From Planctomycetota bacterium (lineage in GTDB: Bacteria; Planctomycetota; Phycisphaerae; UBA1845; Fen-1342), in the NCBI GenBank assembly GCA_018814045.1, contig JAHJAR010000293.1:1-64000 (forward strand): a DNA stretch of 64,000 bases, written 5' to 3'. The position numbers and the translations under genes were made by a program. Every line of letters starts with the position of its first letter. Position 1 is the stretch's first letter. This document shows positions 7,904 to 57,353 of the stretch, one piece after another. The notes under the pieces were generated by a model. That model was not told where the DNA came from. It did no database searches and saw nothing but the letters and a program-made list of their open reading frames with translations.

Positions 7904-7940
7904 GCGCCAGTCGCTAAGAGCGCCTGACAAGACTAGTTTG

Positions 7941-8012: not shown

Positions 8013-8076
8013 ATCCCATTATCTCCAGCCGACACCAGGCGCCACCTGCCCTGGGCCGCCAATCCTGGCTACGTGC

Positions 8077-23647: not shown

Positions 23648-23665
23648 GGTGACCACCTCCCCTCC

Positions 23666-33821: not shown

Positions 33822-33910
33822 GGTCGCTGGACGAGTCGCCGATGAGTTGGCACGAGACGTGCATGGCACATTCCGGATTGTTGGTGCTCGCGGCGATGCG
33901 GGCTCATCCG

Positions 33911-33924
33911 TAGGAGGTGATTCG
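33911..33924 (+). promoter_or_regulatory. Very strong ribosome-binding site of the saccharopine dehydrogenase gene
   Basis: TAGGAGGTGATTCG directly before ATG 33925 is complementary to nearly the whole anti-Shine-Dalgarno end of 16S rRNA. It fixes the start of the gene, although the reading frame is open upstream to 33763. Confidence 0.85.
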
Positions 33925-37549: not shown

Positions 37550-38307
37550 TCCTGCGGCTCCATCAGCCCCAGCGACTCAGCCAGACACTCGGCCATGTGC
37601 TTGAAACGCAGCGGAATCCCCCGCCGCTGGGCGCCGCCGGACAGATTCAACGCACATCCGGCTTCGTTGCAGATAACGAGGCGGGCCTTGGTCGCCGCCA
37701 ATTCGTTCAGCTTTGTGAGCATCATGGGCGCGCTGATCTCGGGCAGATCCACGGCAAACACGCCGCCGAAGCCACAGCACAGGTCGGGGTGCTCGGGATC
37801 ACGGACGTCGCGGGCACCATGCTCGTCGCCGCTCGAATCGCCGGCGAGCCAGCCGTGCAGGTCATCGACTTCGTAAACGTGGCGGGCGTGGCACGGATAG
37901 TGATAGGTGGTCGGCTCCGGCAGCTTCAGATGTGCGGCGATGTCCACGTGCAATTCGTCGCGCAGAAACGTCGCAAACTCGTGCGTCTTGCGACCCAGTT
38001 GCTCAGCGCGCTGCCGCCACTGCTCGTCGGCGGCGAACAGCTCAGGGTAGTGGCGTTTGACCATGGTGGTGCATGAGGCCGAGGGCGAGACGACGCACTG
38101 GTAAGGTCCGAAGACACGGATCATCCGCCGGGCCAGCGCTGCCGCCTCGTCGTTGAAGCCGCTGTTGAAAGCCGGCTGCCCGCAGCAGGTCTGTTCGTCC
38201 GGGAACACGACGCGGCAGCCGAAATGTCGGAGCACGCGCACGACCGCTTCTCCGACGCGCGGGAAGAACGTGTCCGTCAGACAGGTAACAAAAAGCGCGA
38301 CTTCCAC
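37546..38307 (-). CDS. lutA: Lactate utilization protein LutA (CCG-domain Fe-S oxidoreductase)
   Basis: 253 residues with two cysteine-rich CCG domains, which bind the iron-sulfur cofactor. The first has FPDEQTCCGQPAFNSG with SPSASCTTM, the second YHYPCHARH with PDLCCGFGGVFAVD and NEAGCALNL. It is the family's normal length. The start is GTG at 38307, with GGAG nine bases upstream and no ATG available before it. It is the first gene of lutABC. A plus-strand gene begins 162 bases upstream, so the promoter lies in 38308-38469. Confidence 0.92.
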   Translation of the reverse strand: MEVALFVTCLTDTFFPRVGEAVVRVLRHFGCRVVFPDEQTCCGQPAFNSGFNDEAAALARRMIRVFGPYQCVVSPSASCTTMVKRHYPELFAADEQWRQRAEQLGRKTHEFATFLRDELHVDIAAHLKLPEPTTYHYPCHARHVYEVDDLHGWLAGDSSGDEHGARDVRDPEHPDLCCGFGGVFAVDLPEISAPMMLTKLNELAATKARLVICNEAGCALNLSGGAQRRGIPLRFKHMAECLAESLGLMEPQE

Positions 38308-38469
38308 GCTGCCCTGCTCCGGCGTGCAGCGCCTGCAAAACGCTAAAAGAAAACCGCGCTGGCGGCGGCTTTACCTGCTATTCTACTATAGAAAAGAGTT
38401 CGTGACACCTCCAACCGCGCCGGGCTGCTGGCGGCCCCAAGGTTGGCTCGATTCCGCAGGAGGAAGAAG

Positions 38470-40298: not shown

Positions 40299-41420
40299 TT
40301 ACGGGTTGACCGGTTGCGACGTCGGGCTCCGAAACGCGTCCAGTGGTGCCATCTCGAACTCGACCGTTGCGGCCTCTCCGGCGCGCACGTAGGTAACCTT
40401 GATGGTGTCGCCCGCCGCCTTGGTCGCCAGCCGCCGTTTGAAAGGGAGCAGGCTGCGTGTGGGCACGCCGTCCAGGTGCGTGATGATGTCGCCTTCGCGC
40501 AGGCCGGCTTCGGCCCCCGGGCCGCGCGGTTGACCGGCGATGCGCAGGCCGCTCGGCTGGTCCGTCTCCGACAGTCCAACCACCGGCTCGCGTATCTCGA
40601 CGCCAATCCCCAACAAACCGCGGTGCAGGTCTTCGCCGCGCTGCAACCGTGCCAGCCGCTCTCGTAACAGTTCTATGGGCACGGCGAAGCCGATGCCGGC
40701 ATCGTACCACTCCACACCGGCGATCTGGTCGTCCGGGTTGGCCCCCAACGGTACGCACACGCCAGACACGCGTCCCTCGACGTCAAACAGCGGACCGCCA
40801 TAGTTGGCCGGCGAGATCTTCGCGTCGGTCTGCACCGCCGTCGCCGCCATGCGGCGCAGGCCACTGACGATGCCAACCGAAAGCGCCGGCGTCGAACTGC
40901 CCTGTCCGTAGCCCGCGACTAACGCCCACTGCCCCAGACGCAAATCGCTGGACGAGAGCCAGCGCGGCTCCGGCAGCCCGCTCGCTTCGATCTTCAACAA
41001 CGCCAGGCGAATCTGATAATCACGGGCCACGAGTTGGCCGACAAAACGGCGGCCATCATGCAGCGTGACTGTAATGATCGACGGCTCACGGATGAAGTTG
41101 AAGCTACTGGTGACAATGTGCCCGTCCGCGGACCAGATCAGCCCGGTGGTCGGGCCGTCCGCCTGCCGGAACTGCGCTCCACGCCGGCGACCACCCTCGT
41201 CCGCCGGGGGTGGCTGCGCTCCGCCTATCGTCTCGATCTTCACAACCGATGGCGTCACGGTGTCGAGCGCGGTCCGAAAGACCTCCTGCTGGGCGGCGAT
41301 CAGGCGCGCGGCGGGGGTAGCCACGTCCCCGACCTCTTGCGCACAGACCCGGCCGGGCCGCCACAACGCCGCCGCAACAAGTGCCAACTCCAATGCCAAC
41401 AGCGCAGATCCTCTTGTCAC
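40299..41420 (-). CDS. HtrA-like pseudoprotease with PDZ domain (all three catalytic residues lost)
   Basis: 373 residues: signal peptide, trypsin-like barrel (60-240) and a PDZ domain (265-360, GLRIAGQPRGPGAEAGLREG, then DIITHLDGVPT). Aligned with the active paralog at 42436, the His position (LTNYHV) reads VTSSFN, giving Phe107. The Asp position (GGDIAVFKL) reads IRLALLKI, giving Arg138. The Ser position (NPGNSGGPL) reads SPANYGGPL, giving Tyr207. The fold is kept while proteolysis is excluded, so it probably binds or presents clients. The GTG start at 41420 overlaps the stop of the previous gene as GTGA. It is the last gene of the long minus-strand run. Confidence 0.9.
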   Translation of the reverse strand: MTRGSALLALELALVAAALWRPGRVCAQEVGDVATPAARLIAAQQEVFRTALDTVTPSVVKIETIGGAQPPPADEGGRRRGAQFRQADGPTTGLIWSADGHIVTSSFNFIREPSIITVTLHDGRRFVGQLVARDYQIRLALLKIEASGLPEPRWLSSSDLRLGQWALVAGYGQGSSTPALSVGIVSGLRRMAATAVQTDAKISPANYGGPLFDVEGRVSGVCVPLGANPDDQIAGVEWYDAGIGFAVPIELLRERLARLQRGEDLHRGLLGIGVEIREPVVGLSETDQPSGLRIAGQPRGPGAEAGLREGDIITHLDGVPTRSLLPFKRRLATKAAGDTIKVTYVRAGEAATVEFEMAPLDAFRSPTSQPVNP

Positions 41421-42439
41421 CGCGGTTGCTCTCCCACCACCAACTCCAAGGTCTTCAGCACGTTGCCGCGTTTCACCACCAGTTCAACGCGCTGTCCCGG
41501 CTGTAACTGTTGCAGAACGGCGCGATACTCGTCGCACGTTCCGACGGTTTGTCCGGCGAAGCTGACGACCAGGTCGTCCGGGCACACGCCGGCTTGCCGC
41601 GCCGGCGAGTCACGCCGCACGCGCTCGACATAGGCCGGCCGCAGTTGGCCCCCAATGTCGAAGAGCTGAATCCCCAGGTATGGTTCGGCTGACGGGTGTG
41701 TCGTCGCCGCGGCCGCTGGCGCCGCGGCGGGTGCCGGACGCGGCCGGCCCGCGACGAAGGCGGCAATTTCCTCGACTGGCAGGGCGTAGTTGACCCAGGT
41801 GTTGGTGCGTTGGCTGATGACGCGCTTCCCGATGATGCCAACCAGATCGCCCCGCACATCCACCAGGGCCCCACCGGCACAGCCCTGCGCCGTGACGATC
41901 ACATCGGTCAGCAACACGGGGCCGTCGTACGAGAAATCTTGCGTGCGCCGCCGGGCATCCAGATCGACGCGCCCCGAAAACACACCCAAAGCCACGGAGA
42001 CCGGCTCGGACCCGGCGGCCACATGAAACGGGTTCGCCGCGGACAACACCCAGTCGCCCGGCCGCAGGTGCGCGCTGCCGCCCAGCTCGAAGAACGGCAG
42101 ATCCGTGGCATCGACCCGCAGCAGCGCCAGTTGACGCTGCTCGTCACGGCGGATGATTTCCGCGGGCAACCGCCGGCCATCCGCCAACACGGTCCGCAAC
42201 GAGCGGGCCTCCAGGAGAAGCGAAAGCGTCGTGACAATCGTCCCGTCCGGTCCAATCACCACGCCCGAACCACAGCCCGGCTCTTGCCCGACCTGTGCCC
42301 CGTAGAGCTTGACGACACGCGCGCGCGCCGTTTCCGCCGCGCGCGAAAAGGGGGCGTCAGAATCGTCCGGTGCCGCGCCGGCACAGATTCCGGCAGCACC
42401 GCACACGGCCAGACACAACCGCCGTAGAACGCTGCTCAT
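41417..42439 (-). CDS. Second HtrA-like pseudoprotease with PDZ domain
   Basis: 340 residues with signal peptide, a trypsin-like barrel and a C-terminal PDZ domain (PYLGIQLFDIGGQLRPAYVE, then RRDSPARQAGVCPDDLVVS). The barrel is recognisable (CGSGVVIGPDGTIVT, LALLRVDA, GIIGKRVISQ), but the triad is gone. The His position is Ser73 (VTTLSLLL), the Asp position Gln103 (EQRQLALL), and the Ser position Ala188 (QGCAGGALVD). Between barrel and PDZ lies an Ala/Pro-rich linker of about 30 residues. The ATG overlaps the previous stop as ATGA. It is probably a folded binding partner of the active protease. Confidence 0.9.
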   Translation of the reverse strand: MSSVLRRLCLAVCGAAGICAGAAPDDSDAPFSRAAETARARVVKLYGAQVGQEPGCGSGVVIGPDGTIVTTLSLLLEARSLRTVLADGRRLPAEIIRRDEQRQLALLRVDATDLPFFELGGSAHLRPGDWVLSAANPFHVAAGSEPVSVALGVFSGRVDLDARRRTQDFSYDGPVLLTDVIVTAQGCAGGALVDVRGDLVGIIGKRVISQRTNTWVNYALPVEEIAAFVAGRPRPAPAAAPAAAATTHPSAEPYLGIQLFDIGGQLRPAYVERVRRDSPARQAGVCPDDLVVSFAGQTVGTCDEYRAVLQQLQPGQRVELVVKRGNVLKTLELVVGEQPR

Positions 42440-44268
42440 CCGTCCCCCTCCGTGGGTCCGGTCGACCAGGTGGCCGGTTCATCCACGCCCAACATCTCAA
42501 CAACGGTCTCATCACCGTTTGTGGCCAGCCGTCGCCAGCGCTGCGGCCATTGCAGGCCCAGCAGGCCAATGCGTCCCTCCACCAGCCACAACGCGGCCGC
42601 CGGGCCAGCGCTTTCCGGCGCCCCCGTGATCCGGTCGCACTCCGTGTTCAGCACTGCGCCACTGGGCAGAGAAACCAGGAACGGATCACACGTCTCTGCG
42701 CCGTACGTCACGGTGGCAACGCGGAGCCGACCGCTGGCGGGCGCATACTTCCAGCGAACCCGCGCCCCGCCGGCCAGACTCCGCCGTAACACGACCACCA
42801 ACTCGTCCTGAAACTCGTCTGCACCGAGTGCCTCCCAACCCGCGGCCGATTGCGGCGGCATCAGCAACGGCCTGCTGAGGTGAAACCACTCGTACCACAG
42901 GCGGTCATTCTCAAGCGCGCCCGGCTGTGCGGCCTGCGGCCGGGCAGGCGGCGTATCGCCGACTTCGAACTCCTGCGGCGTCGCACCGGCTGGCTCCAAC
43001 GGTTCGACGCGCAGGCGTCCAGCCGCGTCCTGCGTCAGCAACAACACAGCGCTGCCGGCGTCAGTTTCACCGCGCCACGTCACACGGCATCGCCACGTCA
43101 CGCGTTCGATCCGGCGGCCTTGGCCAAGGCGGTCACCTTGTTCGTACTGCTGCCAGATGTGGAGGACTTCGGCCTCGTTCTGGGACAGTTCGGGAATCAC
43201 GGCCCGCGGCAGACGCACGGGCAGGCGTTCCAAACGGGTTGCCACGGTCAGCGCCTGTCCAGTTCGGCGTACCGTCAGCACGACGGGCCACTCGCTCGGC
43301 AGGATTGCCAGCGCGTTGTTGAAATCGTTGGACGTGCGTACCGGTTTTCCACACACACTGAGTAGTTCATCGCCAGCCCGCACACCGGCCCGGGCCGCCG
43401 GCGAGAGTTCCTGCACCTGATCGAAAACCAGGCCGTCCGTACCGGTCCGCACGGCGGCCCCCAACGTCCCGTGCTCACAGAGGCGTCCGGCGCGCAGGGC
43501 CGGCAGAAAACGCTTGATCTGGTTCACACTGACGGCGTAACCCAGGCCAACGTTGACCCGCCCGCGCTCTTCAAACGACGCGCGGCCGTTGATGCCGAGC
43601 ACCCGTCCGGCCATGTCAATCAGCGGGCCACCCGAGTTGCCCGGGTTGATCGAGGTCGAGACCTGGATGCAATCCGCGTATTCCAGCAGGCTGCGGGCCT
43701 CACCCTGTCCGTACTGGTACCGATGCAAACCACTGATCACACCCAGCGTGATCGTCGGCGTATAATCCTCGGCCAGCACAAACGGGTTGCCCATCGCCGC
43801 CACCCACTGCCCGGCCCGCAATGCATCCGAATCACCCAACGGGGCGAAATCGAAACGCGCTTTGCCATCCAGCTTGAACACGGCAATGTCGCCGCCCGGA
43901 TCCACACCCCAGACCGTCAGCGGATAGAGTTGGCCGTCGGACAAGCCCCCATACCCCTGGCGAGTTCCGACCATGCCACTGATAACGTGATAATTGGTGA
44001 GCCCAAGCCCGTTTTCGTCGATGATTACGCCGGCCCCGCCGCCGCTGGCCGCCCGATCACTGAAGATGCACACGATGGCGCGGGCCGCCTTCGTCAGAAC
44101 CTCCGCACGCTGTGCCTCATGTTCCCGTACAAGCCGCAGCGCTTCCTCGTCTTCCGCGGCTGGCGCGAAGCGCCCGGCCAGCAGCAGTCCCAGCAGGGCG
44201 GTCGCCTTCAGAACGCAGCGGCGCGAGTTTCGTGACGGCCCTCTGTGCATCGGCACCCGGCACCTCAT
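42436..44268 (-). CDS. Active HtrA/DegP-like serine protease with Tat-type signal
   Basis: 610 residues with an intact triad: His94 in LTNYHVI, Asp127 in PGGDIAVFKL and Ser212 in INPGNSGGPLID. A PDZ domain follows (about 265-350), then about 260 residues without clear homology. The N-terminus has SRRCVLKATALLGLLLAG, which fits the twin-arginine S-R-R-x-F-L-K pattern with Val in place of Phe, so the protein may go through the TatC system encoded at 30886. The start at 44268 makes an ATGA overlap with the preceding gene; an ATG at 44250 would still keep the twin arginine. It is the only catalytic member of the triplet. Confidence 0.9.
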   Translation of the reverse strand: MRCRVPMHRGPSRNSRRCVLKATALLGLLLAGRFAPAAEDEEALRLVREHEAQRAEVLTKAARAIVCIFSDRAASGGGAGVIIDENGLGLTNYHVISGMVGTRQGYGGLSDGQLYPLTVWGVDPGGDIAVFKLDGKARFDFAPLGDSDALRAGQWVAAMGNPFVLAEDYTPTITLGVISGLHRYQYGQGEARSLLEYADCIQVSTSINPGNSGGPLIDMAGRVLGINGRASFEERGRVNVGLGYAVSVNQIKRFLPALRAGRLCEHGTLGAAVRTGTDGLVFDQVQELSPAARAGVRAGDELLSVCGKPVRTSNDFNNALAILPSEWPVVLTVRRTGQALTVATRLERLPVRLPRAVIPELSQNEAEVLHIWQQYEQGDRLGQGRRIERVTWRCRVTWRGETDAGSAVLLLTQDAAGRLRVEPLEPAGATPQEFEVGDTPPARPQAAQPGALENDRLWYEWFHLSRPLLMPPQSAAGWEALGADEFQDELVVVLRRSLAGGARVRWKYAPASGRLRVATVTYGAETCDPFLVSLPSGAVLNTECDRITGAPESAGPAAALWLVEGRIGLLGLQWPQRWRRLATNGDETVVEMLGVDEPATWSTGPTEGDG

Positions 44269-45560
44269 CGTATCAAGCGGGCGAAGGCCCAACAGGCATG
44301 ATCGCCCAGGTCGAGGTCCTCGTCATAGTCGATCTCGAGGCTCAGTTCGCTCGCCCCGGCGACATCGATTGCGATCTCCTGCGGCGGACCGCCACCCCGC
44401 AGGCCGCGGGCCTCCCAGACCGGCTGTTGATCGCAGAGGACGCGGGCCATCACGCAGCCACGAGCGCCGACTTCGTCCGCGATGCCCACCACTGCCGCGA
44501 ACTGCCGAAAACCGCCGTCTAGCGCGTAGACGAGCGTGGCCCGGCTGTGCATGGTCACGCCGCTTGCATACTCACGGCCGGCCAGACGGATCGGCTGACC
44601 AGTGAGCGTGCGATCAACCGCGTACTCCCAACGCTTATCGAAGAACGGCACGAACTCGTAGCGCACCGGCCGCAAAGCCGACAGCAGCACGATGCGCTCG
44701 CTCCGGCAGGCGAGTTCGACGATCTCCCCCCAACCCAGCTCGAGCCGGTCGAATACACTCGATTGCAGCACCGCGCCGGTCGCGGAGCCCCCGATGATAC
44801 GGCCGGCGAAGGCGCTGCCGTCGCGAAGTCTGGCGGTGCAGGCCGCCGCGCTGGGGGCCGGGCGGGCCAGGACGATTCCCGCCACGCGCGACCAAGGCAA
44901 GCGCACATCGCGGCCGTTCCACTCGAAGAGCGCCCGGCCCGGCTCCAGAGCGCGGACCGTCCCACGCAGCACGAGCACTTCGTCTGCCCCGGAGACAACC
45001 GCCACATCATTGAACTGGCCGCCACGGTCGCGTTCGTCGCGTCCGGCCGCGCTCCCGCTCGGTGCCGCGTTGGCCTGTTGCTGGATCTCGGATAGCTTTG
45101 CCAGCGCCTCGGCACCGGCTGCGCTGGAAACGACACCGGCCAGGTCGATCAGATTGACCTGTCCAGTCTGACCCGTCGGCAGCGTGATTTCACAGCCGGC
45201 TGCGTTCGCGGCGCTGATCCGACCGCAAAAGCGTGAACCATCCCCGAGCTGAAACCGTAGCGGAGCTTCCGGGGCCGCGGGCTGGGTGTCAGCCGCGTGC
45301 CCGCCGACGGGACGCACACTGAGCACATCGGGCCAGCTCAGCGAAACGCGGTCGCCGCCTGTGTGCAGCACGATCATCGGCACGAGTTGCGTGATCTCGC
45401 CCCGCACACGCTGCCCGTCAAGCCGGGTGATCTCCACTTCGACGCCGGCGTGCGACGCCGCGGCGGCGGTGGCGAGCAACAGGCAGCCAATCGCGAGCCG
45501 CATCGGGTTCGCCGGTCGGCCTGCGCGTCGCCCGATTGTCTGGTCGCCAGTGCGCGTCAT
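44265..45560 (-). CDS. Secreted protein with C-terminal NPCBM domain
   Basis: 431 residues. ATG 45560 follows GGAGGAGAA and overlaps the preceding stop as ATGA. The N-terminus is exported, the likely signal core being MRLAIGCLLLATAAAASHAG from residue 20. The middle is beta-rich with repeated short strands (R-L-D-G-x-R-V-R-G-E, LGDGSRFCGRI, LRDGSAFAGRI). The last 150 residues fit the NPCBM domain, a putative carbohydrate-binding module (YASGVTMHSRATLVYALDGG, FRQFAAVVGIADEVG, EIAIDVAGASELSLEIDY). It may bind cell-surface polysaccharide next to the protease complex. The function is inferred only from the domain. Confidence 0.82.
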   Translation of the reverse strand: MTRTGDQTIGRRAGRPANPMRLAIGCLLLATAAAASHAGVEVEITRLDGQRVRGEITQLVPMIVLHTGGDRVSLSWPDVLSVRPVGGHAADTQPAAPEAPLRFQLGDGSRFCGRISAANAAGCEITLPTGQTGQVNLIDLAGVVSSAAGAEALAKLSEIQQQANAAPSGSAAGRDERDRGGQFNDVAVVSGADEVLVLRGTVRALEPGRALFEWNGRDVRLPWSRVAGIVLARPAPSAAACTARLRDGSAFAGRIIGGSATGAVLQSSVFDRLELGWGEIVELACRSERIVLLSALRPVRYEFVPFFDKRWEYAVDRTLTGQPIRLAGREYASGVTMHSRATLVYALDGGFRQFAAVVGIADEVGARGCVMARVLCDQQPVWEARGLRGGGPPQEIAIDVAGASELSLEIDYDEDLDLGDHACWAFARLIR

Positions 45561-46612
45561 TTCTCCTCCGCCAGGGAGCGGTAGTACTGCTCGACCAATT
45601 GTCGATAGCGTGACGGGTAGCGCTCGCGCAGCGATTGCAGCACTTTCTCGCGCTCGGCGGGCGGCAGCTTGCCCCACATCTCGCCCGGATCGGCCTGCTC
45701 AACGCCATGCAGGTCGCCTATTCGCCCCGCCCCATCGGGTGCTTCAGACTTCTCGGCTCCCCGGCGTGGCGCCTGTTCGGGTGCGCGCCCGCGCTGCTGG
45801 CCCCCGCCGCACTGCTTGTTCTCTTTGCGCTCCTCCTCCTCGATCAACTTGTCCAGCAAAGCGACCGCCCGGCGTTGACGCTCCTGCACCTTCTCCGCCC
45901 CGTCACTGGCCTTCAGCCGCTCCGCCGCGTATTTCAGCAGCCGCGCGATCTCGTCCAGTTCTTCCGTGCCGCGGCGGCGAAGCTCGAGCAGCAACTGCTG
46001 TGCCCCGACGCGCACGCGTTCGGGGGCCTCGGGAAACGCATCCAGCATGTGTTGCAGCGTGAGCGCGGCTTGATCGAGGCGTAGATTGCTGGCCTGGCAG
46101 AAGCCCAGAAAGAACCAGATGTGCGGGGCGTATGGCGTATAGCGCTCCGGTTCCGCCCCCGCCGCCGTCGCCAGGTTCAACTGCTGCTCGGCGCGTTCGA
46201 GCAGACCTTGCTCGATCAAGGCGCGTGCGTGGTAGTAGGCCGCGTTGGCCACCACGTACGGATCGCCATGCTCGCCCAGCGGCGTGGCCAGGCGCACGAC
46301 ATTTTCGTAGTGTTCCTCGTCGAACGCGTCCAGAACAGCGCGAAACGCCGGGTACAGGACGGCGAGCGCATCCGGCACAAAGCTCTCCGGCGCCTGCGTG
46401 CGGTACTCCTGCTGCCAGCTCTGCCGAATGTGTGCCACCGCCTGGGCCTGCTCCGGCGCGAGACCTTCCAGGTGTGTCAGGAAGCCGGCGTTCAGACGCT
46501 CGATTCGCTCCGTGTCCTGCGCCGCCGCGCTGCCAACGAGCAGAGCGCCCGCGAGCAGCGCCGCCGTCACACACGCCGCGCTGAGCCGCTCATTCCGTGC
46601 AGTGCTCGGCAT
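45557..46612 (-). CDS. Exported alpha-helical repeat (TPR-like) protein
   Basis: 351 residues, starting with a signal peptide (ACVTAALLAGALLVGSAAAQ). Much of the protein is helical, with TPR-like pairs such as HYENVVRLATPLGEHGDPYV with NAAYYHARALIEQGLLERA, then ERYTPYAPHIWFFLGFCQAS. A Lys/Glu-rich linker and a C-terminal helix (EREKVLQSLRERYPSRYRQL) follow. ATG 46612 has AAAGGG seven bases upstream; a TTG two codons earlier overlaps the preceding stop. It is probably a scaffold or partner-binding protein of the cluster. Confidence 0.8.
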   Translation of the reverse strand: MPSTARNERLSAACVTAALLAGALLVGSAAAQDTERIERLNAGFLTHLEGLAPEQAQAVAHIRQSWQQEYRTQAPESFVPDALAVLYPAFRAVLDAFDEEHYENVVRLATPLGEHGDPYVVANAAYYHARALIEQGLLERAEQQLNLATAAGAEPERYTPYAPHIWFFLGFCQASNLRLDQAALTLQHMLDAFPEAPERVRVGAQQLLLELRRRGTEELDEIARLLKYAAERLKASDGAEKVQERQRRAVALLDKLIEEEERKENKQCGGGQQRGRAPEQAPRRGAEKSEAPDGAGRIGDLHGVEQADPGEMWGKLPPAEREKVLQSLRERYPSRYRQLVEQYYRSLAEEK

Positions 46613-46614
46613 GC

Positions 46615-48111
46615 TCAATCCCTTTCGCTCATCCGCCGCGCCAACTCGGCCAACTCGGCCTGCTGCTCGGACAGCCGCTGGAAACGCGCTTCGTTCTCCG
46701 GATTCGTGGCGGTTTCGGCGGTCTGCGCCAGGTCGGCGGTCCGTTCATTTACGCGTAACTGGACCGACCGCAGCAGTTTCAGCTCCGCCGACGTACGCAA
46801 CAGCGGCGGCCGTCCCTGGGGCTGCTCGCCGCCCTCACCACCCTGGGCTGCCTGGCGATCCTGGTCGCGTTTCTCTTCCACGGCGCTGACGATGTCACTC
46901 AACACGCGGATGATCGCATCCAACGTCGCCCGTGTATTCAGCCCGATGTCCTCTTGCGACAGTGCCTGGGCGACCGCGGTCATCTCCTCGGCCAGTTGCC
47001 GTACCAGCGCGGGTACAATCACCGTGCTACCCTCGTCCACGAGGATGCGCAGCGCAATGCGGCAGTCCGCGGCGACCTCCTGCTGCACCTCCGCCACATC
47101 GGCCAAAGCCAACCGCGCGCTGTGTCCCCACGCCTGCGGGTCGTCGTTTTCGCCCTCCCCGGATGCATCATTGGTCGCCACCCTGACCAGGCTCTGCACA
47201 ACCTCGCGCACCTGCTGCTCGCGCGTCAGCATGCTCTTGAAACGGATTTCGAGGGCCGTCAGCGTCTCTTCGATCTCCTCGCGGCGAACCTGGCGCAGAG
47301 CGTCGTCGAGCTCCTCCAACGCGCGTTGCAGGCGCTCCAGGGCGGCCTCCTGGCGCGGGATAGCCGCATCCGGGGCGCGCTCGCCCAACCGGTCGGCGGC
47401 ATGCTGCATGGCCATCCGCGCTTCGCCGACTTCACGGGCACCGGGGTCCCCTTGCTCACGGCCGGGCGGCGGCTGCAATTCCTGCTCCAGCCCCGATGCT
47501 TCACGTTCTAGTTCCCGCTGGCGGAGCTCCAGCGCACGCATCTGAGCAGGGGTAGGCGCTTCCGTCTCGCTGAGCGCGCGAGTTTCGCGTAGGCGCTCGA
47601 GTTGCTGCTGCATCAGGGCCCGAACCGTGCGGCGGTACTCCTGCAACCGCTGGCGTTCGGAGCGGCGCTGTTCCAACTCGTTCAGCGGATCGGTCAGCAG
47701 CTTCAGAAGCGCCTCCAGATCCGCGAGCAGCAGTTCCTGCTCACGTTCGGCGTCGCTGAACCGCTCGGATCGCAGCAGTTGCACCAAGTGCTCCAAACGC
47801 CGCTTGATCTGCCGCGTACCAGCCTGGTCGGTTGCCTCGCGCAGACGTTCCGCCTTGGCCGGTTCGCTCTCGGCGAGCAACCGCGCGAGCTTCAGCATGC
47901 GACCTTCCAGTTGCTGTACGCGCGCCCGCACCGCATCCTGTCGGCCGGTCAGTTCGTCCTCCGCCGGCGCCGGGACATCCGTGGCTGGCTGATCATCGGG
48001 CTGCTGCCCGGGGACCGCTGTCGCCGGCCACGCTCCTCCGACGAGCAGCCAGACGACTACCGCGCTCCGCAAACCACTGTGTACTCGAAGTCGGCTCGTC
48101 ATGTTGAGCAT
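46615..48111 (-). CDS. Exported coiled-coil protein of the MoxR cluster
   Basis: 498 residues (ATG 48111, one base after the stop of the preceding gene; ATG 48102 is equally possible). After a signal peptide (SAVVVWLLVGGAWPATAV) nearly the whole protein is predicted helix with heptad patterns, for example LRETRALSETEAPTPAQMRA, LERLQRALEELDDALRQVRR and the end QRLSEQQAELAELARR. Large coiled-coil proteins like this commonly stand next to the DUF4175-like membrane gene in planctomycetes. No enzymatic motif is visible. It probably lies in the periplasm and binds neighbouring products. Confidence 0.75.
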   Translation of the reverse strand: MLNMTSRLRVHSGLRSAVVVWLLVGGAWPATAVPGQQPDDQPATDVPAPAEDELTGRQDAVRARVQQLEGRMLKLARLLAESEPAKAERLREATDQAGTRQIKRRLEHLVQLLRSERFSDAEREQELLLADLEALLKLLTDPLNELEQRRSERQRLQEYRRTVRALMQQQLERLRETRALSETEAPTPAQMRALELRQRELEREASGLEQELQPPPGREQGDPGAREVGEARMAMQHAADRLGERAPDAAIPRQEAALERLQRALEELDDALRQVRREEIEETLTALEIRFKSMLTREQQVREVVQSLVRVATNDASGEGENDDPQAWGHSARLALADVAEVQQEVAADCRIALRILVDEGSTVIVPALVRQLAEEMTAVAQALSQEDIGLNTRATLDAIIRVLSDIVSAVEEKRDQDRQAAQGGEGGEQPQGRPPLLRTSAELKLLRSVQLRVNERTADLAQTAETATNPENEARFQRLSEQQAELAELARRMSERD

Positions 48112-48112
48112 T

Positions 48113-50272
48113 CTACGGCTTCGGCTCGTCGGGCGGGGCTGGTTCTTCCGGTTCCTCGAGTTCCAGAAGCGCCTTGAGCCGTCGCTCCAGGGCCTCCAAT
48201 GTTGCAGCACGTACATCGTGCTGCTCGGTCACAATCTCGCGCAATAATGCGATCGTCTCGCGATAGCCCTCCCATTCCAGCATGTTCGCCAGGATCGCGC
48301 GCAGCGCGCGGATTATCGTGGCCTGCTGTTGCGACCACGACTCACGTCGAGCGCGACTCGCGTCCACCCGCAGTTCCGTCAGCGTTGTCGCCGCGGCCGG
48401 CATCAACTCCTGGCCCAGGGTGTCCAGCGGAAGCACGATCAGGTTTCGAATGCGCCGCTCATCCGCCTGAACCGCGACGCGGTTCGTCGTCATCTCCGCC
48501 AGGATCTGCTCGAACTCGCGACTCATCCCCAGGCAGCGGCCGGCCTGCGCGTTTTGCCGGCGGGCGAGGCCGGCCAGTCGCCGAGCTACGGCCTGCTCGG
48601 GCCCCGCGTCCTCGGCCAGGCTCGACAAAAGCGTCTGCGTGGCTTCCTGCAAAGCTCGTTGGGCGCTGATGAGGCGCTCAAATTCGCGGCGCAATTCGAG
48701 TTCGCGGCGGGCCATGTCGGTGAGAAAGTCGTCGCGGGAGACGACCTCCAGCTCGAGCGCCACCGACCGTCCCACATTTGGACCACGTGGATCCTGATCC
48801 GCAGCCTCCACCCACAATCGCAAACGGTCACCCGCCGCCAAGCCCGCCGAACTGGGCGAGAACGATGCCGACGTCTGAAACTCGCGCCGCCCCGCGACAA
48901 AACCCGGCAACTCGATCAAACGCGGCGTCTCATCACGCGGCTGCACCATCAAGCCGCCCGAACCGAGCCCGTATGTATCGGTAAGCTGGCAAACCAGCGG
49001 AAGCTCAGCCAGAACGGTCACGAGCTCGCCCACGCCCGCAGCGTCCAAGCGCACTGCCGGCGGGCGATCAGCCGCGACCTTGAGCGTGAATTGCACCGGG
49101 TGGTCGTTCCCCCAACCGTCGTCGTCCAGCAGTCCGAAGTGAAACACGCCGGACACGGGCTCCGGCCACGACACGCGCACGTGGTCGGCCGCGACGCTCC
49201 CACACGCCGCTGCCTCGTCGCCGGCAGCAGTCAGAAAACGCGCCTGCCTCACGGGCTTGTTCAGCCACGCGTCCAACTCGACTCGCCCACCCGCCAGCAC
49301 TTCCAACACGGTTTGCTGCTCGACGGAGTATGGTTCGAGGCCGGTATACTCCGGCGGCCACACGCGAACGTTCGTGCGCAGGACGCGCGGTCGCTCGACT
49401 ACCACGACGATGTACTCATTGGTGCGCTCGTCACCGCCGACGATACGGAAACGCACCTGCTCCCGCAGGCGGCCAAGCGCGACGTGGAGACTGGTACGGC
49501 CGACCTGCGTCATGCTCTCGGCCGCGTAATGTCCCGCTGGTGTCGACCATTCGAGTTGCACCACGGTCGGCACGACACCCTCTACGCGGGCGACGATTTC
49601 GAGTTCGTCCCCCAACGGAACGCGCCGCCGCCGCTGCTCGTCAAAGCCCACCGGGTGTATATATGTCCGCTGCGGCCAGGGCACGTCACGCAGCAGCCAG
49701 TTGCGCTTGAACCACGTCCCCATTAAGCCGGGCAACAGCACAAATGCCAGCACTATCACGAGTAGCCACCCGCTCAACAGGCAAGCCCGGCGAGCGGCGC
49801 GGCGGTGATCGAGCACTTCGAGAAACGGCACCTCCGCCACGGTGTCACACGCGTCCGCGAGCACGGCTCGAATCAGTTGCGGACTGTGGGAGTCCGCGGC
49901 GCCGACGCGTCCCCCCGCAAACTGCACCGCCGTTGCCAGGCAGTCATGCAACTGTGGACAGGCCCGGTCGACCGTCGCCGCCAGTGTGCGGTCATCAAGT
50001 GTGTACGACAGCCGCGTCAGCAGTGAACGCCGCAGCACCCACAGCCAGAACACCGTGAGCGCGACATTCAGCGCGGCGCGTTGATCAGCGCTCAGCCGCA
50101 ACCAGCGATCGAGCAGCAGTTGCCCCAAACCAGCGGCCACCAGGGCGATGCACACGTGAAAGGCGCCTTCCAGCGCGAGGTAACAGCGCCAGCGCCGCCG
50201 GAGTGAGGCCAAAGGTGCGAAGACCCGTTCACTGAGGCGTGCGTCGAGGTTGTCCGCGGACCTAGTGCTCAC
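48113..50272 (-). CDS. DUF4175-like membrane protein with large periplasmic part
   Basis: 719 residues from the GTG at 50272, which overlaps the stop of the VWA gene as GTGA (an internal reading begins possibly at ATG 50302). Three membrane helices come first (ALEGAFHVCIALVAAGLGQL, LNVALTVFWLWVL, ACLLSGWLLVIVLAFVLLPG). A beta-sandwich-rich region follows (THYIHPVGFDE-like start, RVWPPEYTGLEPYSVEQQ, VSGVFHFGLLDDDGWGN), then a long helical coiled-coil tail. This fits the DUF4175 type found with MoxR-linked clusters. Its role is not established. Start choice is uncertain by about 30 bases. Confidence 0.75.
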   Translation of the reverse strand: MSTRSADNLDARLSERVFAPLASLRRRWRCYLALEGAFHVCIALVAAGLGQLLLDRWLRLSADQRAALNVALTVFWLWVLRRSLLTRLSYTLDDRTLAATVDRACPQLHDCLATAVQFAGGRVGAADSHSPQLIRAVLADACDTVAEVPFLEVLDHRRAARRACLLSGWLLVIVLAFVLLPGLMGTWFKRNWLLRDVPWPQRTYIHPVGFDEQRRRRVPLGDELEIVARVEGVVPTVVQLEWSTPAGHYAAESMTQVGRTSLHVALGRLREQVRFRIVGGDERTNEYIVVVVERPRVLRTNVRVWPPEYTGLEPYSVEQQTVLEVLAGGRVELDAWLNKPVRQARFLTAAGDEAAACGSVAADHVRVSWPEPVSGVFHFGLLDDDGWGNDHPVQFTLKVAADRPPAVRLDAAGVGELVTVLAELPLVCQLTDTYGLGSGGLMVQPRDETPRLIELPGFVAGRREFQTSASFSPSSAGLAAGDRLRLWVEAADQDPRGPNVGRSVALELEVVSRDDFLTDMARRELELRREFERLISAQRALQEATQTLLSSLAEDAGPEQAVARRLAGLARRQNAQAGRCLGMSREFEQILAEMTTNRVAVQADERRIRNLIVLPLDTLGQELMPAAATTLTELRVDASRARRESWSQQQATIIRALRAILANMLEWEGYRETIALLREIVTEQHDVRAATLEALERRLKALLELEEPEEPAPPDEPKP

Positions 50273-52719
50273 AGGAGGTGACTCCGTCGACGCAGGGTCC
50301 ATTCGACGGTCAACGCCGCGGCTAATACGAGCAGAACCCACGTGCGATCCCAGAGGTTTTCGTTGGGACCACGCGCGGAACTGATTCGATCGGCGTTTTC
50401 GATACGCTCCGGCAAGGCGTCGGCTTCGCTCACCGGCAGATACGTCCCGCCCGTGTGCTCCGCCAGTTCCCGCAGCGTTTCCACCTGTAGGCGCACGGTA
50501 CGAGCTTCGGCATCCGCCCGGTTGACGCGCAGGTAGCGAACCGGCGCCTGGGCCAACGAGCGGGCGTCGTCGCCGAGCGCGTCGGGCAAGGGTACACGGA
50601 TGGCGACCGACCCGGCCTGTTCGATTGTCACGCGCCCGCCAAACCACCCGTCACGCCCGGTGATGGCCTTGAGCGTTAGCGCGCGCTGGCTGCCATCCTC
50701 GAATTCGAGCCGCGCCTCGAGCTCGGGCGCGCTCCAGGGCGCGAAGCTCTCGTCCAGCAAACGCGCCTCGATCTTAACGTGGTCGCCGACGTCGATCGTC
50801 TCGCGCTCGAGCACGATCGTGCCGCGCCGGGTGCCGCCCTGACGCCGACTCTGAGCCAGGTAGCGCACGAGCTGAATCCAGAAACGGTTGAAGTAGCGCT
50901 CACCGGTGGCACGCCAGCGCCAGGTGTCATCAAAGCCCAAAAAGACGGTGCGGCCCGAACCGACCGGCTGGGTTGCCATCAGGATCGGGCTGCCGAGACG
51001 TTCGGCCGCGGTTCCTTCGCCGCGCTGCAACAACACGGTGGCCAGTGGTTTGGCGCGCGCGACCGGCAGATGCCACCACACGCCGGGCAGCGCCCGCCAG
51101 ATCGCCGCGCTGGTGGCGACGTCCGCATGCAAGGCCAGCAACGGATGGTCGCGTATTTCCTCCGGGATATGCGGCGTTTGCGCCCGCGTGCGAAACGCGC
51201 CCTGTTCGCTCAGCCGAACTTCCGCATCGGCCTCCGGGATGATCGGCAGAATCGCGACGAGTTCCTGCGCATCCGCGTCTTGCAGAAAACGCGTGCTGAA
51301 GTGCGTGCCGGCCTCGAGCAGCAACCCCCCGCCGAATTCCTCTATCCAGCGCCGTACAACGAGCGCCCAACCCGCGTCAAGGCCGCGCGGATTGGGATCC
51401 ATCAGAATGATGGCATCGTAGGCAAAGATGTCGTCCGGACGGCGCGGCATCTCGCGGATGACGGTGTCGCCATCGCGCACGGCGTTGACGTCCGCGGACT
51501 GCAGCCAACAACTGAGCTCCACGCTGTTGTCGCGTTCGAGCAGGCGCGCCAGGTAGCGATAGTCGTACGAGGGCCGCCCCGCCACGATCAGCACTCTGGT
51601 GCGCTCCGCCAGCACCAGCACGGTTGTCGCGGCAGCGTTGTCGGTCTGCACAATCTCCCGCTCCAGCGGACTGATGCGCGCACGATACAGGTGCCGCCCC
51701 GCTCCCGCGGGCGTCACTTGAAACAGCAGCGGCGGCGCAGCCGTGTCAGCGTCCAACACCACCTGTCGGCGAGCCAGGATCTGTTCACCCTGCGTATTCG
51801 CAGCATCGCTACGCACCGCCTCGTCCAGCGGTTCGACCGACAACTCCACTTCCAGCTCCGCCCGTGCAACCCCACTGGCGGCAAGCTCGATCCGCACTTC
51901 GAACGGGTCGTTCTGCGGCACCGTGGCCGGGGCAGCGATGCTCGCGATACGTACGTTCGCCGGCGCCTGGGCCGCACCGACCCCGATGGTGTGAATGGGA
52001 GCCCCGTAGCGCTGCGCAAGCGCCGCGAGGCCGGCGACCGACAGCCCCTGATTCAGGCCACCATCGGAAACCAGCACGATCCCGGCGACCGGACTGTCAC
52101 CCATTCCGTCCAAGGCCGCTGTCACGGCCCTTCCAGCGTCGGTGGCGCGTTGCATCCCAGCCGCAAAGCCGCCCAAGGCAACGCTCGCCGCATTCCCCGC
52201 CGCGGGATCACCGGTGCGTTCCCAGGGCCAGTTGATGAGCTGTGCATCCGCACCGAAGGCGTAGAGCTGTAGCTCATTCCGCGCGGCCAATCGTCGCAGC
52301 CAAGCCGAGTCCGCCGATCCCAACAGCGTCGCGACGCGCTCGCGCCGCGTCGAGGCCAGATCTCCGGAAGGCTGCCCCGGCTCTTGGCTGACCTGCGGTG
52401 CATCGGCGATCGACATGCTACCGGAGACATCCACCAACACTGCCACGCCGGCCCGGCTGGTACGCACTAGATACGTGGCGATCACCGGTTGGGTCCAGAT
52501 GACCGCCAACAACAGGAGCACCAGACATCGTAGTGCCGCCAGCGCGTAGCGCAGACGCGCGCCGGCGCCCACGCGGCTTTCCCGGCGATACATCCAGACC
52601 ACCACGTAGCCCATCGCAACCAACAGCAGCAGCCCCAGCAGGCGCGCCCAACCCGCGGGCGCGCCCGCGAGTTCGAACTCGCGCTGCTGTTGCTCGATGA
52701 CGCTCGCGACCAAGTGCAT
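50269..52719 (-). CDS. VWA-domain membrane protein with class I glutamine-amidotransferase-like domain
   Basis: 816 residues from ATG 52719, which lies in a TGATG overlap with the preceding stop and has GGAG just upstream; an ATG at 52740 is the alternative. Two N-terminal membrane helices (WARLLGLLLLVAMGYVVVWM and CLVLLLLAVIWTQPVIATYL) precede a von Willebrand A domain with the MIDAS motif VAVLVDVSGSMS and later IVLVSDGGLNQG. A GATase-like region follows (FAYDAIILMDPNPRGLDAG, GGGLLLEAG), then a beta domain and a C-terminal membrane helix (TWVLLVLAAALTVEWTLR). Such VWA proteins are the usual partners of MoxR ATPases and are thought to hold metal-dependent assemblies at the membrane. Confidence 0.88.
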   Translation of the reverse strand: MHLVASVIEQQQREFELAGAPAGWARLLGLLLLVAMGYVVVWMYRRESRVGAGARLRYALAALRCLVLLLLAVIWTQPVIATYLVRTSRAGVAVLVDVSGSMSIADAPQVSQEPGQPSGDLASTRRERVATLLGSADSAWLRRLAARNELQLYAFGADAQLINWPWERTGDPAAGNAASVALGGFAAGMQRATDAGRAVTAALDGMGDSPVAGIVLVSDGGLNQGLSVAGLAALAQRYGAPIHTIGVGAAQAPANVRIASIAAPATVPQNDPFEVRIELAASGVARAELEVELSVEPLDEAVRSDAANTQGEQILARRQVVLDADTAAPPLLFQVTPAGAGRHLYRARISPLEREIVQTDNAAATTVLVLAERTRVLIVAGRPSYDYRYLARLLERDNSVELSCWLQSADVNAVRDGDTVIREMPRRPDDIFAYDAIILMDPNPRGLDAGWALVVRRWIEEFGGGLLLEAGTHFSTRFLQDADAQELVAILPIIPEADAEVRLSEQGAFRTRAQTPHIPEEIRDHPLLALHADVATSAAIWRALPGVWWHLPVARAKPLATVLLQRGEGTAAERLGSPILMATQPVGSGRTVFLGFDDTWRWRATGERYFNRFWIQLVRYLAQSRRQGGTRRGTIVLERETIDVGDHVKIEARLLDESFAPWSAPELEARLEFEDGSQRALTLKAITGRDGWFGGRVTIEQAGSVAIRVPLPDALGDDARSLAQAPVRYLRVNRADAEARTVRLQVETLRELAEHTGGTYLPVSEADALPERIENADRISSARGPNENLWDRTWVLLVLAAALTVEWTLRRRSHLL

Positions 52720-55094
52720 CACGCGCTCCGGCTGCTCCATGACAATCCACGTTCAACCGACGCACGCCCGAACCACCACGCCAGTATTTGCTCCGCCATC
52801 AGCACTACTACGACGAACACCACCAGCGCCGGCCACACTTCACGCCGCGACCGCTCGCCGCCGCCGAGAAACCCCTCTCCCGCGGCGATGATCTCGTGCG
52901 GCACGCCGACCAGCGCCGCGTCCAGCTCGCGCGCCCGGGCCACGGCCAGATCAGACTCGCGCGGGGCGAGATTGACGCACAACGGACGGGTCTCGGACGG
53001 ACCAGTCCGCCCAGTCAGCTCAACGGTAAACGTACCCAACTCCCGCGTCCGCGGCCCGCGCAGCAGCGCCAACTCGCCCAGAGCGACACCGGCTGGGTCC
53101 GCGCTGCCCACCACCGGCGGCTCCTCGGGATAGCTGGGCGTCTTGAACACCGCGCTCAACTCGAACCGCTCCGGCGAAATCGGCAGTGTCAGCGGCTCAC
53201 CAGCGAGCAGTTCCGCCGGGTGCGTGCCGCGGCGTGCGATGTACTGCACCAGTTCGAGCATGGTCACCACGTAGCTTCCATCCACGGCCCGCGGCCAGTC
53301 GTTCCAGTCCAGGTCAACCGTGGACGTAAACAGCATCACGCGCCCGCGGCCAAACGACCGCTCGATCAACGCCGGCGATTGGGCATCATCCGCGTAGCGC
53401 GCCAGCACCAGCGCCGGCCGTGCCGGAGCGTTGGCCGGCTGGGACACCTCACCGGGCGCGCCGGCACCCGGCGCTGGTTCGTCACAGCGATAGTAGCCGC
53501 GGAAATGCACGTACTCCGATAGCCCCGCCTCCCCCGCCGGGAACATCGCCGTAATCGGGTGCTCGATCGTCCGCAGCAGTCCCACACCTTCGGGCCGTTC
53601 GGTCGAGCTGGTCGGCTGGGTCAGCGCCAGCGGCAACAACCCCGTGCCGTCGCGGTACAGACCGCGGTTGTATTCGTCCGGAGATCCGACTTCGCTTCCC
53701 AGCGTGATTACGATGCCGCCGCCGCCCCGGGCGTAGGCCTCCAGGGCCTCCAGCGCCTCTTCGCCGGGCGGCGGCACATTACAGAGCATGATGCAATCGT
53801 ACTGGGCAATGTTCAGCCCCACGATCTCATCGGCCTCGCAGACTTCGACCCGTACTCCCGACGCGAACGGTCCGGGGGGCGAGAGCGCATTGCGCAGCAG
53901 GTAGACCTCATCGCGGTGGGGGCTGCTGTTGGGCTGCCCGTTGACCAGCAGCACTGCCAGCGTCTCCTTCACCTCGACCGCCAGCCGCCGCACATCATCG
54001 GCCGAAAACGAATCTGACCGGTTCAGTTGCACGGTCAGTGCACGATAGCCGGGCTCGGCGAAAATGGTTTCGAGCACGACATCTCGACGATCGTTGGCCA
54101 CGATTGCCGGCACCGGCACCGGCGGCAGCGCCGCCCCGTCCACTTCTCCGTGCAAGCTGGTGGCCTCCAGAGTCTGCCCGGTGTGGTTGGCCACGCGGGC
54201 AATGACAACGCAGGGCACCCCCGCGACGATCTGCGGACGCTCGAGGACGAGCGCGTCGATCGCCGTGTTCGCCCGACCCGGCACGCCGGAGGCCACCAGG
54301 ATCACGCGCAGTCCCGCGCCGTCGGCGGTTCTCTCCCGCGCAATCGCGGTCAGAGCTTCGAAGGGCGAGCCACTCGCCGCGCTATCTGCCGGAGCCGGTG
54401 TTTCGATGACCTGCTCGTCGGGCCTTGTCTCGGCAGTCACAGCCAACCAGTCGGTGCGCTGAAAGTCCGATAGCACGTATACGTCCGCCGGCGCGCTCTC
54501 CCCCTCCGCCCGCAGCCGCTCGGCGACGCGCGCCAGCACACGGGCCGGCCGCGCCGACACAGCCACCGGTTCGAGCCGCGCCACCTGCTGTAGCAGTTCG
54601 TCCACCGTCGCCCCACTTAGCGGCGTGTCCTCCGTCAGCGGTGCCTCCGGTTGCGAGGTCAGGTAGAACGTAAGCGGCTCACCACCCGCCTCCTGTGCCA
54701 GCCACTGTACCAGCCGCGTGGCGGCGGTCCGCAGCCGATCGAACTCCGGTGCCGCGCCGACCCGATAGGCCAGACTGGCTGAATCGTCCAGAACGACGAT
54801 GCGCTGCACATGGCCGCGCCTGCCGAGCAATTCCGCCACCAACCCCGGCTGGACGAATGGCCGCGCCACGAGCAACGCCAACAACGCCATCGCCAGACAA
54901 CGCAACGCCAACAGAAGCCACTGCTCGAAGCGAATCCGCCGCCGGTTCTCCGCCATGGCCTCGAGCAGGAAACGCGTCGCCCCCCAGGGTAGGCGGCGGA
55001 ACCGTCGGCGGGACAGCAGGTGGATCACCACCGGCACCGCCGCCAGCGCCAACCCCGCGAGCAAACCCGGGTTGACGAATCCAGCGGCCAGCAT
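52719..55094 (-). CDS. BatA-like protein with N-terminal TIGR02226 domain and VWA/amidotransferase-like regions
   Basis: 791 residues from ATG 55094, with AAGGTG seven bases upstream (a GTG at 55112 overlaps the DUF58 stop as GTGA). It starts with the BatA N-terminal membrane domain (NPGLLAGLALAAVPVVIHLL followed by SRRRFRRLPWGATRFLLEA) and a second helix. A VWA-like region follows (RIVVLDDSASLAYR, then ADVYVLSDFQRTD). The centre resembles a glutamine-amidotransferase fold (LNIAQYDCIMLCNVPPPGEE, GGGGIVITLGSE). A C-terminal membrane helix closes it. BatA was first linked to aerotolerance in Bacteroides. Here the cluster probably serves cell-envelope stress, by inference. Confidence 0.85.
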   Translation of the reverse strand: MLAAGFVNPGLLAGLALAAVPVVIHLLSRRRFRRLPWGATRFLLEAMAENRRRIRFEQWLLLALRCLAMALLALLVARPFVQPGLVAELLGRRGHVQRIVVLDDSASLAYRVGAAPEFDRLRTAATRLVQWLAQEAGGEPLTFYLTSQPEAPLTEDTPLSGATVDELLQQVARLEPVAVSARPARVLARVAERLRAEGESAPADVYVLSDFQRTDWLAVTAETRPDEQVIETPAPADSAASGSPFEALTAIARERTADGAGLRVILVASGVPGRANTAIDALVLERPQIVAGVPCVVIARVANHTGQTLEATSLHGEVDGAALPPVPVPAIVANDRRDVVLETIFAEPGYRALTVQLNRSDSFSADDVRRLAVEVKETLAVLLVNGQPNSSPHRDEVYLLRNALSPPGPFASGVRVEVCEADEIVGLNIAQYDCIMLCNVPPPGEEALEALEAYARGGGGIVITLGSEVGSPDEYNRGLYRDGTGLLPLALTQPTSSTERPEGVGLLRTIEHPITAMFPAGEAGLSEYVHFRGYYRCDEPAPGAGAPGEVSQPANAPARPALVLARYADDAQSPALIERSFGRGRVMLFTSTVDLDWNDWPRAVDGSYVVTMLELVQYIARRGTHPAELLAGEPLTLPISPERFELSAVFKTPSYPEEPPVVGSADPAGVALGELALLRGPRTRELGTFTVELTGRTGPSETRPLCVNLAPRESDLAVARARELDAALVGVPHEIIAAGEGFLGGGERSRREVWPALVVFVVVVLMAEQILAWWFGRASVERGLSWSSRSA

Positions 55095-55108
55095 GGAGGC
55101 ACCTTGGA

Positions 55109-56020
55109 TCACCGGCGTCGTCCGCCTCCCGCGCGCCCCTGACGCCGACTCAGATAGCCGCAGAGGACGACATCCACCGGATCACGCGTATTCACGGGTA
55201 CATAGTCCGCCTGACGCTTGAGGCAGGCCGCCCGCACGCGGCCGCTGAAGCGCTGCACCGCCGCGCGATAGCTGCGCCGCAATGACTGTGGATCGGCCAG
55301 CAGGCGCGCGTCGTCCTCCAACCCCTCGAACAGCACGTTCTCGGCAAAAGGGAGGTTCCATTCGTGATCGTCCAGCACATGCAGAACGATCAGCTCGTGG
55401 CCAACGGAGCAGATGTGCTCGAGCCCGGCGACCACCTCGTTCACATCCGCCAACAGATCCGAAATCACCACCACCAGCGACCGTTCGGGCAGTTCCTCCG
55501 CCAAGCGGTCGAACAGCATCTTGACGAGCGTCTGCCCCGCGGGGTGGGCTGACTCCAACAACGTGAGCACGTTCGCCAACTGCGTGCGCCCGGTGCGGCA
55601 GCCCAGCCTGGCGCGCACATCGCTGTCGAAGGTCAACAGCCCGATCGCGTCCTGCTGCTCGATCACCAGGTAGGCCAGGCTCGCGGCGAGCACGGCGGCA
55701 TAGTCGAACTTGCTCAACGGGCCGCTGCCGTAAGCCATGGATCGGCTGGCGTCCAGCAAGAGGTGGCAACGCAGGTTGGTCTCGGCCTGGTATTGCTTGA
55801 TGTAGAAGCGGTCCTGGCGCCCAAACAGCCGCCAATCGATGTGCCGCGGGTCGTCTCCCGAGACGTACGGGCGGTGCTCGGCGAACTCGACGCTGTGCCC
55901 GCGGTAGGCGCTGCGGTGCATCCCCGCCAGCGTTCCGGCGACCGCGCCGCGCGCGCGCAATTCCAACCCGCGCAGCCGCGCGATTGTCTCCGGCCTCAGG
56001 TACTTCTTTGCTGCCGCCAT
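55109..56020 (-). CDS. DUF58 protein (VWA-like partner of MoxR)
   Basis: 303 residues with the DUF58 pattern: EHRPYVSGDDPRHIDWRLFG, RQDRFYIKQYQAETNLRCHL and LLLDASRSMAYGSGPLSKFD (a MIDAS-like D-x-S-x-S), then LVVVISDLLADV. DUF58 proteins nearly always follow a MoxR gene and are thought to bind metal ions and be activated by the ATPase. The following gene overlaps its stop. The start at 56020 has TTAGGCG upstream. It is separated from the MoxR gene by a 145-base gap that contains a copy of repeat R1. Confidence 0.92.
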   Translation of the reverse strand: MAAAKKYLRPETIARLRGLELRARGAVAGTLAGMHRSAYRGHSVEFAEHRPYVSGDDPRHIDWRLFGRQDRFYIKQYQAETNLRCHLLLDASRSMAYGSGPLSKFDYAAVLAASLAYLVIEQQDAIGLLTFDSDVRARLGCRTGRTQLANVLTLLESAHPAGQTLVKMLFDRLAEELPERSLVVVISDLLADVNEVVAGLEHICSVGHELIVLHVLDDHEWNLPFAENVLFEGLEDDARLLADPQSLRRSYRAAVQRFSGRVRAACLKRQADYVPVNTRDPVDVVLCGYLSRRQGRAGGGRRR

Positions 56021-56165: not shown

Positions 56166-57293
<1,128 letters not shown>

Positions 57294-57353
57294 CACATAC
57301 TCCGTCAGGAACCTGCTGTGCCACCACGCGGCGGCGCTGCTGTTCGTCTTACA

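Follow-up and report, generated by a model that had tools for sequence, protein, structure and literature searches.

Why would a planctomycete keep, one directly behind the other, an HtrA protease with an intact catalytic triad and two HtrA relatives that have lost every residue of it? This arrangement is found in the 64,000-nucleotide stretch analysed here (positions 1 to 64,000 of contig JAHJAR010000293.1, Planctomycetota bacterium assembly GCA_018814045.1; hereafter the window), in three genes that we call HtrA-A, HtrA-B, and HtrA-C (A, B, and C). An earlier note on this DNA had proposed that the triad losses were selected for a non-catalytic role, in a mixed complex whose inactive members would present or block clients. 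The comparative evidence supports this in part: the triad loss was selected and is ancient, and a joint non-catalytic role of B and C is indicated by co-inheritance of the genes, by fusions between them, and by their persistence in genomes where they are no longer linked. On balance, we lean slightly toward the three proteins forming one exported HtrA hetero-complex, in which A would cut and B and C would be non-catalytic regulatory and binding subunits.

The three HtrA proteins of the window

The genes are located on the minus strand at 42436..44268 (A, 610 amino acids from its ATG), 41417..42439 (B, 340 amino acids), and 40299..41420 (C, 373 amino acids). Their overlaps are as described in the earlier note, with an ATGA common to A and B and a GTGA common to B and C; a further ATGA is common to A and the NPCBM gene upstream of it. 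By Pfam, all three proteins are members of the HtrA/Deg (S1C) fold family, with a trypsin-like barrel followed by a PDZ domain. The Trypsin_2 model is covered over its full length, or almost so, with scores of 80-96 bits (cut-off 27.6), and PDZ is also matched, in agreement with the claim that both domains had been retained in each protein. None of the three reaches the cut-off of the Do/DegP model TIGR02037 (416.2 bits; A, 186; C, 150; B, 132). The PDZ domain of A is followed by a C-terminal part of ~250 residues (approximately 43188-42436, minus strand) without a Pfam match, which is divergent between Phycisphaerae-type and Planctomycetia-type A proteins. The host genome contains five Trypsin_2 places in addition to the trio.

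Only A has the His-Asp-Ser triad (His94, Asp127, Ser212) together with the GNSGG motif of an active protease, here as GNSGGP. The equivalent positions are Ser73, Gln103, and Ala188 in B, and Phe107 (or Asn108), Arg138, and Tyr207 in C, and neither pseudoprotease has the active combination. Alignment to solved HtrAs had been named beforehand as the comparison that could overturn this assignment, and no alignment restored the triad in B or C. The separate alignment of B, whose top match was the DegQ S193A mutant, placed Ser73 opposite the catalytic His, as had been read from the sequence. For C, the loss of all three residues stands, and one detail of the earlier reading is corrected: there is one additional residue beside the His column, and Asn108 is at least as good a partner for that column as Phe107, being placed opposite the His both by HMMER against solved HtrAs and in the wider alignment. 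Whichever of the two is paired with that column, the His is absent. An AlphaFold model of C built from nine sequences has a mean predicted local distance difference test score (pLDDT) of 79.7, exceeding 90 over much of the barrel and PDZ domain. It matches DegQ, DegP, DegS, AlgW, and Deg1, with VIA Z values of 25-27 for DegP, DegQ, DegS, and Deg1, and C is predicted to have a complete HtrA fold.

The N-terminal signal of A and the signal peptides of B and C suggest that all three are exported to the periplasm. The twin-arginine motif SRRCVLK of A fits the Tat-type signal claimed for it, and is echoed in locus L041. The signal peptides of most orthologs are Sec-like by eye, and Tat export was rejected as a trait of the family.

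Conservation, co-inheritance, and fusion of the trio

Relatives were drawn from the same family and order, from named planctomycete contigs, and from the whole phylum. The order A-B-C on one strand was found in 78 planctomycete loci, with the midpoints of A and C at most 3.4 kb apart. This search for the gene order had also been proposed at the outset, and it returned homologs of the two inactive genes that are neither intact nor randomly scattered. The triad is present in 87 of 88 aligned A proteins, and the remaining row is cut at the His column, so all 87 resolved rows are intact. No B row (n = 88) has the Ser nucleophile, and its place is taken by Ala (44), Pro (19), Gln (9), Gly (7), and others; the sole B protein with a His in the His column, from L113, is a long branch and has Gly and Gln in the other two columns. 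Neither His nor Ser occurs in the 92 C rows, which include five from a sister group, C′, described below. Phe occurs in 80 of these rows and Tyr in 81, F-[RKM]-Y being the usual combination, and the column of C Tyr207 is Tyr, Phe, or Trp in 87 of the 92, an aromatic residue in place of Ser almost throughout. Planctomycetia-type B proteins retain the Asp (S/N-D-A/G), and the loss was therefore stepwise. The C proteins of the Planctomycetia-type trios (L034, L036-L038, L080-L102) are mostly ~650-770 amino acids in length, about twice that of the window C, with an additional C-terminal part.

In close pairs, the ratios of nonsynonymous to synonymous substitution (dN/dS; NG86) of B and C are 0.04-0.19, and those of A are similar; purifying selection acts on all three genes. 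Triad loss is typical of decay, and B and C could in principle be decaying duplicates, products of local decay, or an assembly artefact. This explanation was rejected and has next to no probability, being refuted by the conservation of the genes across the phylum, by dN/dS values well below 1, by intact reading frames, and by strict co-inheritance. With its conserved residues and a gene order that is found repeatedly throughout the phylum, the trio is far beyond chance.

To quantify co-inheritance, profiles of the three proteins were run against one set of 244 phylum genomes. Orthologs were scored at thresholds of at least 246 bits for C (next best 230, a C′ gene), at least 241 bits for B (next best 166), and at least 307 bits for A (next best 297, the gap being narrow because of the A′ genes of the sister group). 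C was found in 46 of the 244 genomes. A occurs in exactly these genomes and B in all but one of them (45), a co-occurrence figure that is inflated by kinship; in G178, the one genome without a B match, the contig ends just upstream of C. Less dependent on kinship is the all-or-none pattern within the window's own family, where 14 relatives possess the whole trio and 12, nearly complete genomes among them, possess no member. C is separated from A-B in G011, G037, and G294, and all three genes are dispersed in G137 and G152. Because no member has been lost in these five unlinked genomes, joint retention does not rest on operon linkage.

The trio is usually the end of a conserved MoxR-DUF58-BatA operon, with MoxR at the head in the window. 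Other planctomycete families encode a sister trio in the order B′-C′-A′, which is found without these operon neighbours (L123-L126, L129, L144-L148, L150, L152-L155, L157-L159, L162, L163). The triad of A′ is intact in 21 of 21 rows, and in the 20 B′ rows both the His and the Ser are missing from their places, although some have a Ser in the His column. C′ never has the His and keeps the Asp; the C′ proteins with Asp and sometimes Ser form a natural series of stepwise triad loss. There is no clean score gap for the C′ profile, and two ordinary HtrAs that scored best against it (L146, L147) were excluded from the C′ count. In phylogenetic trees, A, B, and C each form a single clade, A′ is sister to A (support 99), C′ is sister to C (95-98), and both A/A′ and C/C′ are set apart from E. 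coli DegP, DegQ, and DegS and from other planctomycete HtrAs. B groups with B′ with a support of 83 in one tree, and this grouping is absent from the larger tree. From the sister trio and the trees together, the trio thus predates both gene orders, and the His was probably lost before the split of C and C′. The trio is present inside as well as outside the operon.

These distributions bear on the proposal that B and C have taken on an unrelated task, comparable to the metal binding of the magnetosome protein MamO, and are tied to A by operon membership only. The substituted residues are themselves conserved, the aromatic at the C Tyr207 column being an example, and MamO supplies a precedent (PMC4794232). 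We nevertheless consider repurposing improbable: the presence of B and C follows that of A from genome to genome, even where the genes are unlinked, and the B′-C′-A′ trio occurs outside the operon.

Further evidence comes from gene fusions. In 13 loci, representing six families, A and B share a single reading frame, in which the PDZ domain or C-terminal region of A runs directly into the barrel of B; no internal signal peptide was seen in the nine fusions read through by eye. B′ and C′ are one open reading frame in L145 and L152, with two barrels and a single PDZ domain, and L160 and L161 have a B/C-like double behind an active HtrA. The A+B and B′+C′ fusions and the strict co-inheritance make a mixed HtrA complex the simplest reading. 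B and C might instead form homotrimers of their own that serve as PDZ adaptors or holding chaperones, binding clients, or peptidoglycan or glycan ligands, and passing them to A, without a mixed barrel trimer. Co-inheritance fits this equally well, a separate signal peptide and a PDZ domain are present in each protein, C is predicted to have the whole HtrA fold, and DegP-type HtrAs have chaperone roles. The fusions, however, join the barrels covalently, and in the B′+C′ proteins B lacks a PDZ domain, as would suit a structural part better than a PDZ adaptor; we regard separate homotrimers as unlikely.

A putative heteromeric HtrA and its precedents

HtrA activation depends on contacts with neighbouring protomers. 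In the hetero-complex that we favour, A, B, and C would assemble, most simply as a mixed trimer, with A as the sole catalytic subunit. B and C, which keep the barrel and PDZ folds, could hold the activation loops of A in the right state, or keep A off until a signal arrives, and would contribute two more PDZ surfaces, to which substrates or the neighbouring envelope proteins encoded in the MoxR-DUF58-BatA operon could bind. Physical assembly, trimer stoichiometry, and allosteric control are inferred. A broader proposal, to which we give a little less than even chances, is a natural heteromeric HtrA, present across the phylum, in which one subunit is catalytic and two are dedicated pseudoproteases, each with a fixed role that the others could not take over, and which is coupled through MoxR-DUF58-BatA to the cell interior.

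The same complex could work with the opposite sign, if B and C were inhibitory subunits that hold A inactive until a signal releases it. Nothing computed separates activation from inhibition, and the replacement of the catalytic Ser of C by an aromatic residue would suit an inhibitor; on the other hand, a zymogen-like inhibitor need not consist of two distinct paralogs. Sequence evidence points neither way and does not distinguish activation of A from its restraint. We rate an inhibitory role as possible but rather unlikely, its probability overlapping with that of the favoured hetero-complex.

Several observations weigh against a hetero-complex. Fusions and co-inheritance, from which binding is deduced, would also fit enzymes that act sequentially in one compartment. 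The AlphaFold model of A, with a pLDDT of 45, was not interpretable. Each of the three window proteins has Arg and Trp as the equivalents of HTRA1 Arg274 and of Phe278, at what we take to be its position; they vary across orthologs, most in B, and a conserved trimer core was not demonstrated. Four C′ proteins retain both Asp and Ser. Finally, MamE and MamO had no detectable physical contact (PMC4794232).

That magnetosome pair also limits the novelty of the trio. The earlier note knew of no described system of this kind, a statement that does not hold, for it has been published that an inactive HtrA, MamO, activates its active partner MamE without catalysis. In that system, the inactive member is required for proteolysis by the active one, such pairing is said to have arisen repeatedly, and MamE/MamO, as well as MamE1/MamE2, resemble the trio in combining an active HtrA with an HtrA pseudoprotease in one gene cluster (PMC4794232). 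The differences are that there is one pseudoprotease per active enzyme, as studied in AMB-1, versus two in the trio, that MamO has its own TauE-like membrane domain and a metal-binding di-histidine, and that no barrel fusions are reported in the accessible part of the source (PMC4794232); the phylum and the operon are also different. The trio proteins score far below the cut-off of 800 bits of both the MamE model NF040960 (A, 105; B, 60; C, 55) and the MamO model NF040961 (B, 38; A, 37.5; C, 18).

DegP, DegQ, and DegS (MEROPS S1C) resemble the trio in being exported barrel and PDZ proteins whose triad is kept in A, but their known members are homo-oligomers of active subunits, whereas B and C are without a triad and A has its extra C-terminal region. 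In engineered mixed trimers of HTRA1 R274Q and D174R-S328A, an inactive protomer restores activity to an assembly-defective one (PMC11252331). A dead protomer can therefore switch on a live one in a mixed trimer, although those trimers consist of mutants of one human protein rather than natural paralogs. Arabidopsis Deg5/Deg8 was considered as a mixed HtrA and set aside, the source describing separate structures only. A 2019 survey reported that PDZ proteins are expanded in planctomycetes, and its text does not mention "inactive" or "catalytic". In a literature search that mostly did not reach subscription papers, the magnetosome work was the only bacterial precedent for HtrA pseudoproteases, and no account of such a trio came up.

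The pairing of live and dead HtrAs has thus already been published, and an obligate trio with two pseudoproteases appears to be new. It is distinct from the earlier systems in having two dead proteins per live one, phylum-wide age, all-or-none inheritance, barrel fusions, and a MoxR-BatA setting. We know of no earlier obligate hetero-oligomeric HtrA with two dead subunits, and the trio would be the first if the proposal is correct. HtrA proteases are usually taken to be homotrimers; a live protease and two dead paralogs kept through changes of order, dispersal, and fusion suggest that there are natural heteromeric HtrAs controlled by pseudo-subunits, for which ClpP/ClpR and proteasome subunits are analogous cases. 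The trio lends itself to testing how trimer allostery is controlled by inactive subunits and is a way into the MoxR-BatA system of planctomycetes, which is uncharacterised. For structural work, the natural A+B fusions are convenient proteins.

The MoxR-DUF58-BatA operon and other genes of the window

All genes of the operon are on the minus strand. Directly before A is an NPCBM/NEW2-domain protein (44265..45677; PF08305, 98.6 bits; also placed by synteny), preceded by a TPR/YbgF-like protein (45557..46618) identified by synteny and a tol_pal_ybgF match of 22.7 bits, below the NCBIfam cut-off of 90.1. Next come a protein that is coiled-coil-rich by eye (46615..48216; synteny, no family match), a membrane/coiled-coil-like protein, also by eye (48113..50647; synteny), whose mechanically assigned first start makes it overlap the next gene, and a conserved operon neighbour (50269..52740; synteny, no Pfam match). 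The head of the operon encodes a BatA N-terminal-domain protein (52719..55112; PF07584, 68.6 bits), a DUF58/VWA protein (55109..56020; PF01882, 161 bits), and a MoxR-type AAA+ ATPase (56166..57296; PF07726, 209.8 bits). In most loci with enough flanking sequence, genes for DUF58, BatA, two uncharacterised proteins, and the coiled-coil-rich, TPR-like, and NPCBM proteins are found upstream of A.

MoxR, DUF58, and BatA, which together mark a Bat operon, are all present in the window, and DUF58 and BatA are also upstream in the flanked relatives. As for BatB, BatD, and BatE, there is a TPR-like gene, and 48113-50647 and 50269-52740 are without a family match. The neighbourhood looks like a Bat-type system spanning the cytoplasm and envelope. 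It shares with Bat (aerotolerance) operons that contain MoxR the MoxR, DUF58, and BatA genes, which here head the operon. It differs from them in its HtrA trio and NPCBM protein, neither of which is listed among the Bat components in the accessible part of the source (PMC3557215). Deletions of bat genes in Leptospira produced no growth or oxidative-stress phenotype, and the functions of Bat proteins are unsettled (PMC3557215). The literature search described above, with its limited reach into subscription papers, found no paper that brings together MoxR, BatA, and planctomycetes.

A squalene-hopene-cyclase-like repeat protein is encoded at the head of the operon (57354-58511, minus strand). 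Its relatives follow C in L105-L107, L110, L120, and L121, precede the trio operon in L108, L113, and L116, and in L125 are near a B′-C′-A′ trio. On the other side of the trio, a TIGR03790 family protein (38443-40278, plus strand; 138.7 bits, cut-off 67) is convergent with C. LutA/LutB/LutC-like lactate-utilisation genes (35431-38307, minus strand) also adjoin the trio in L040 and L041. Farther away are genes for an AlaDH/PNT N-terminal-domain protein followed by a saccharopine dehydrogenase (32175-35259, plus strand), possibly a split lysine-degradation pair, and for a Ser/Thr protein kinase fused to WD40 repeats (26238-29762, plus strand). A Peptidase C10 family protein (22124-23656, minus strand; 110 bits) adjoins a 590-amino acid open reading frame without a family match. 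A SelB-like selenocysteine elongation factor (11063-13000, plus strand) and an MsrA-like gene (7199-8062) are also present, and a selenoprotein system may be encoded.

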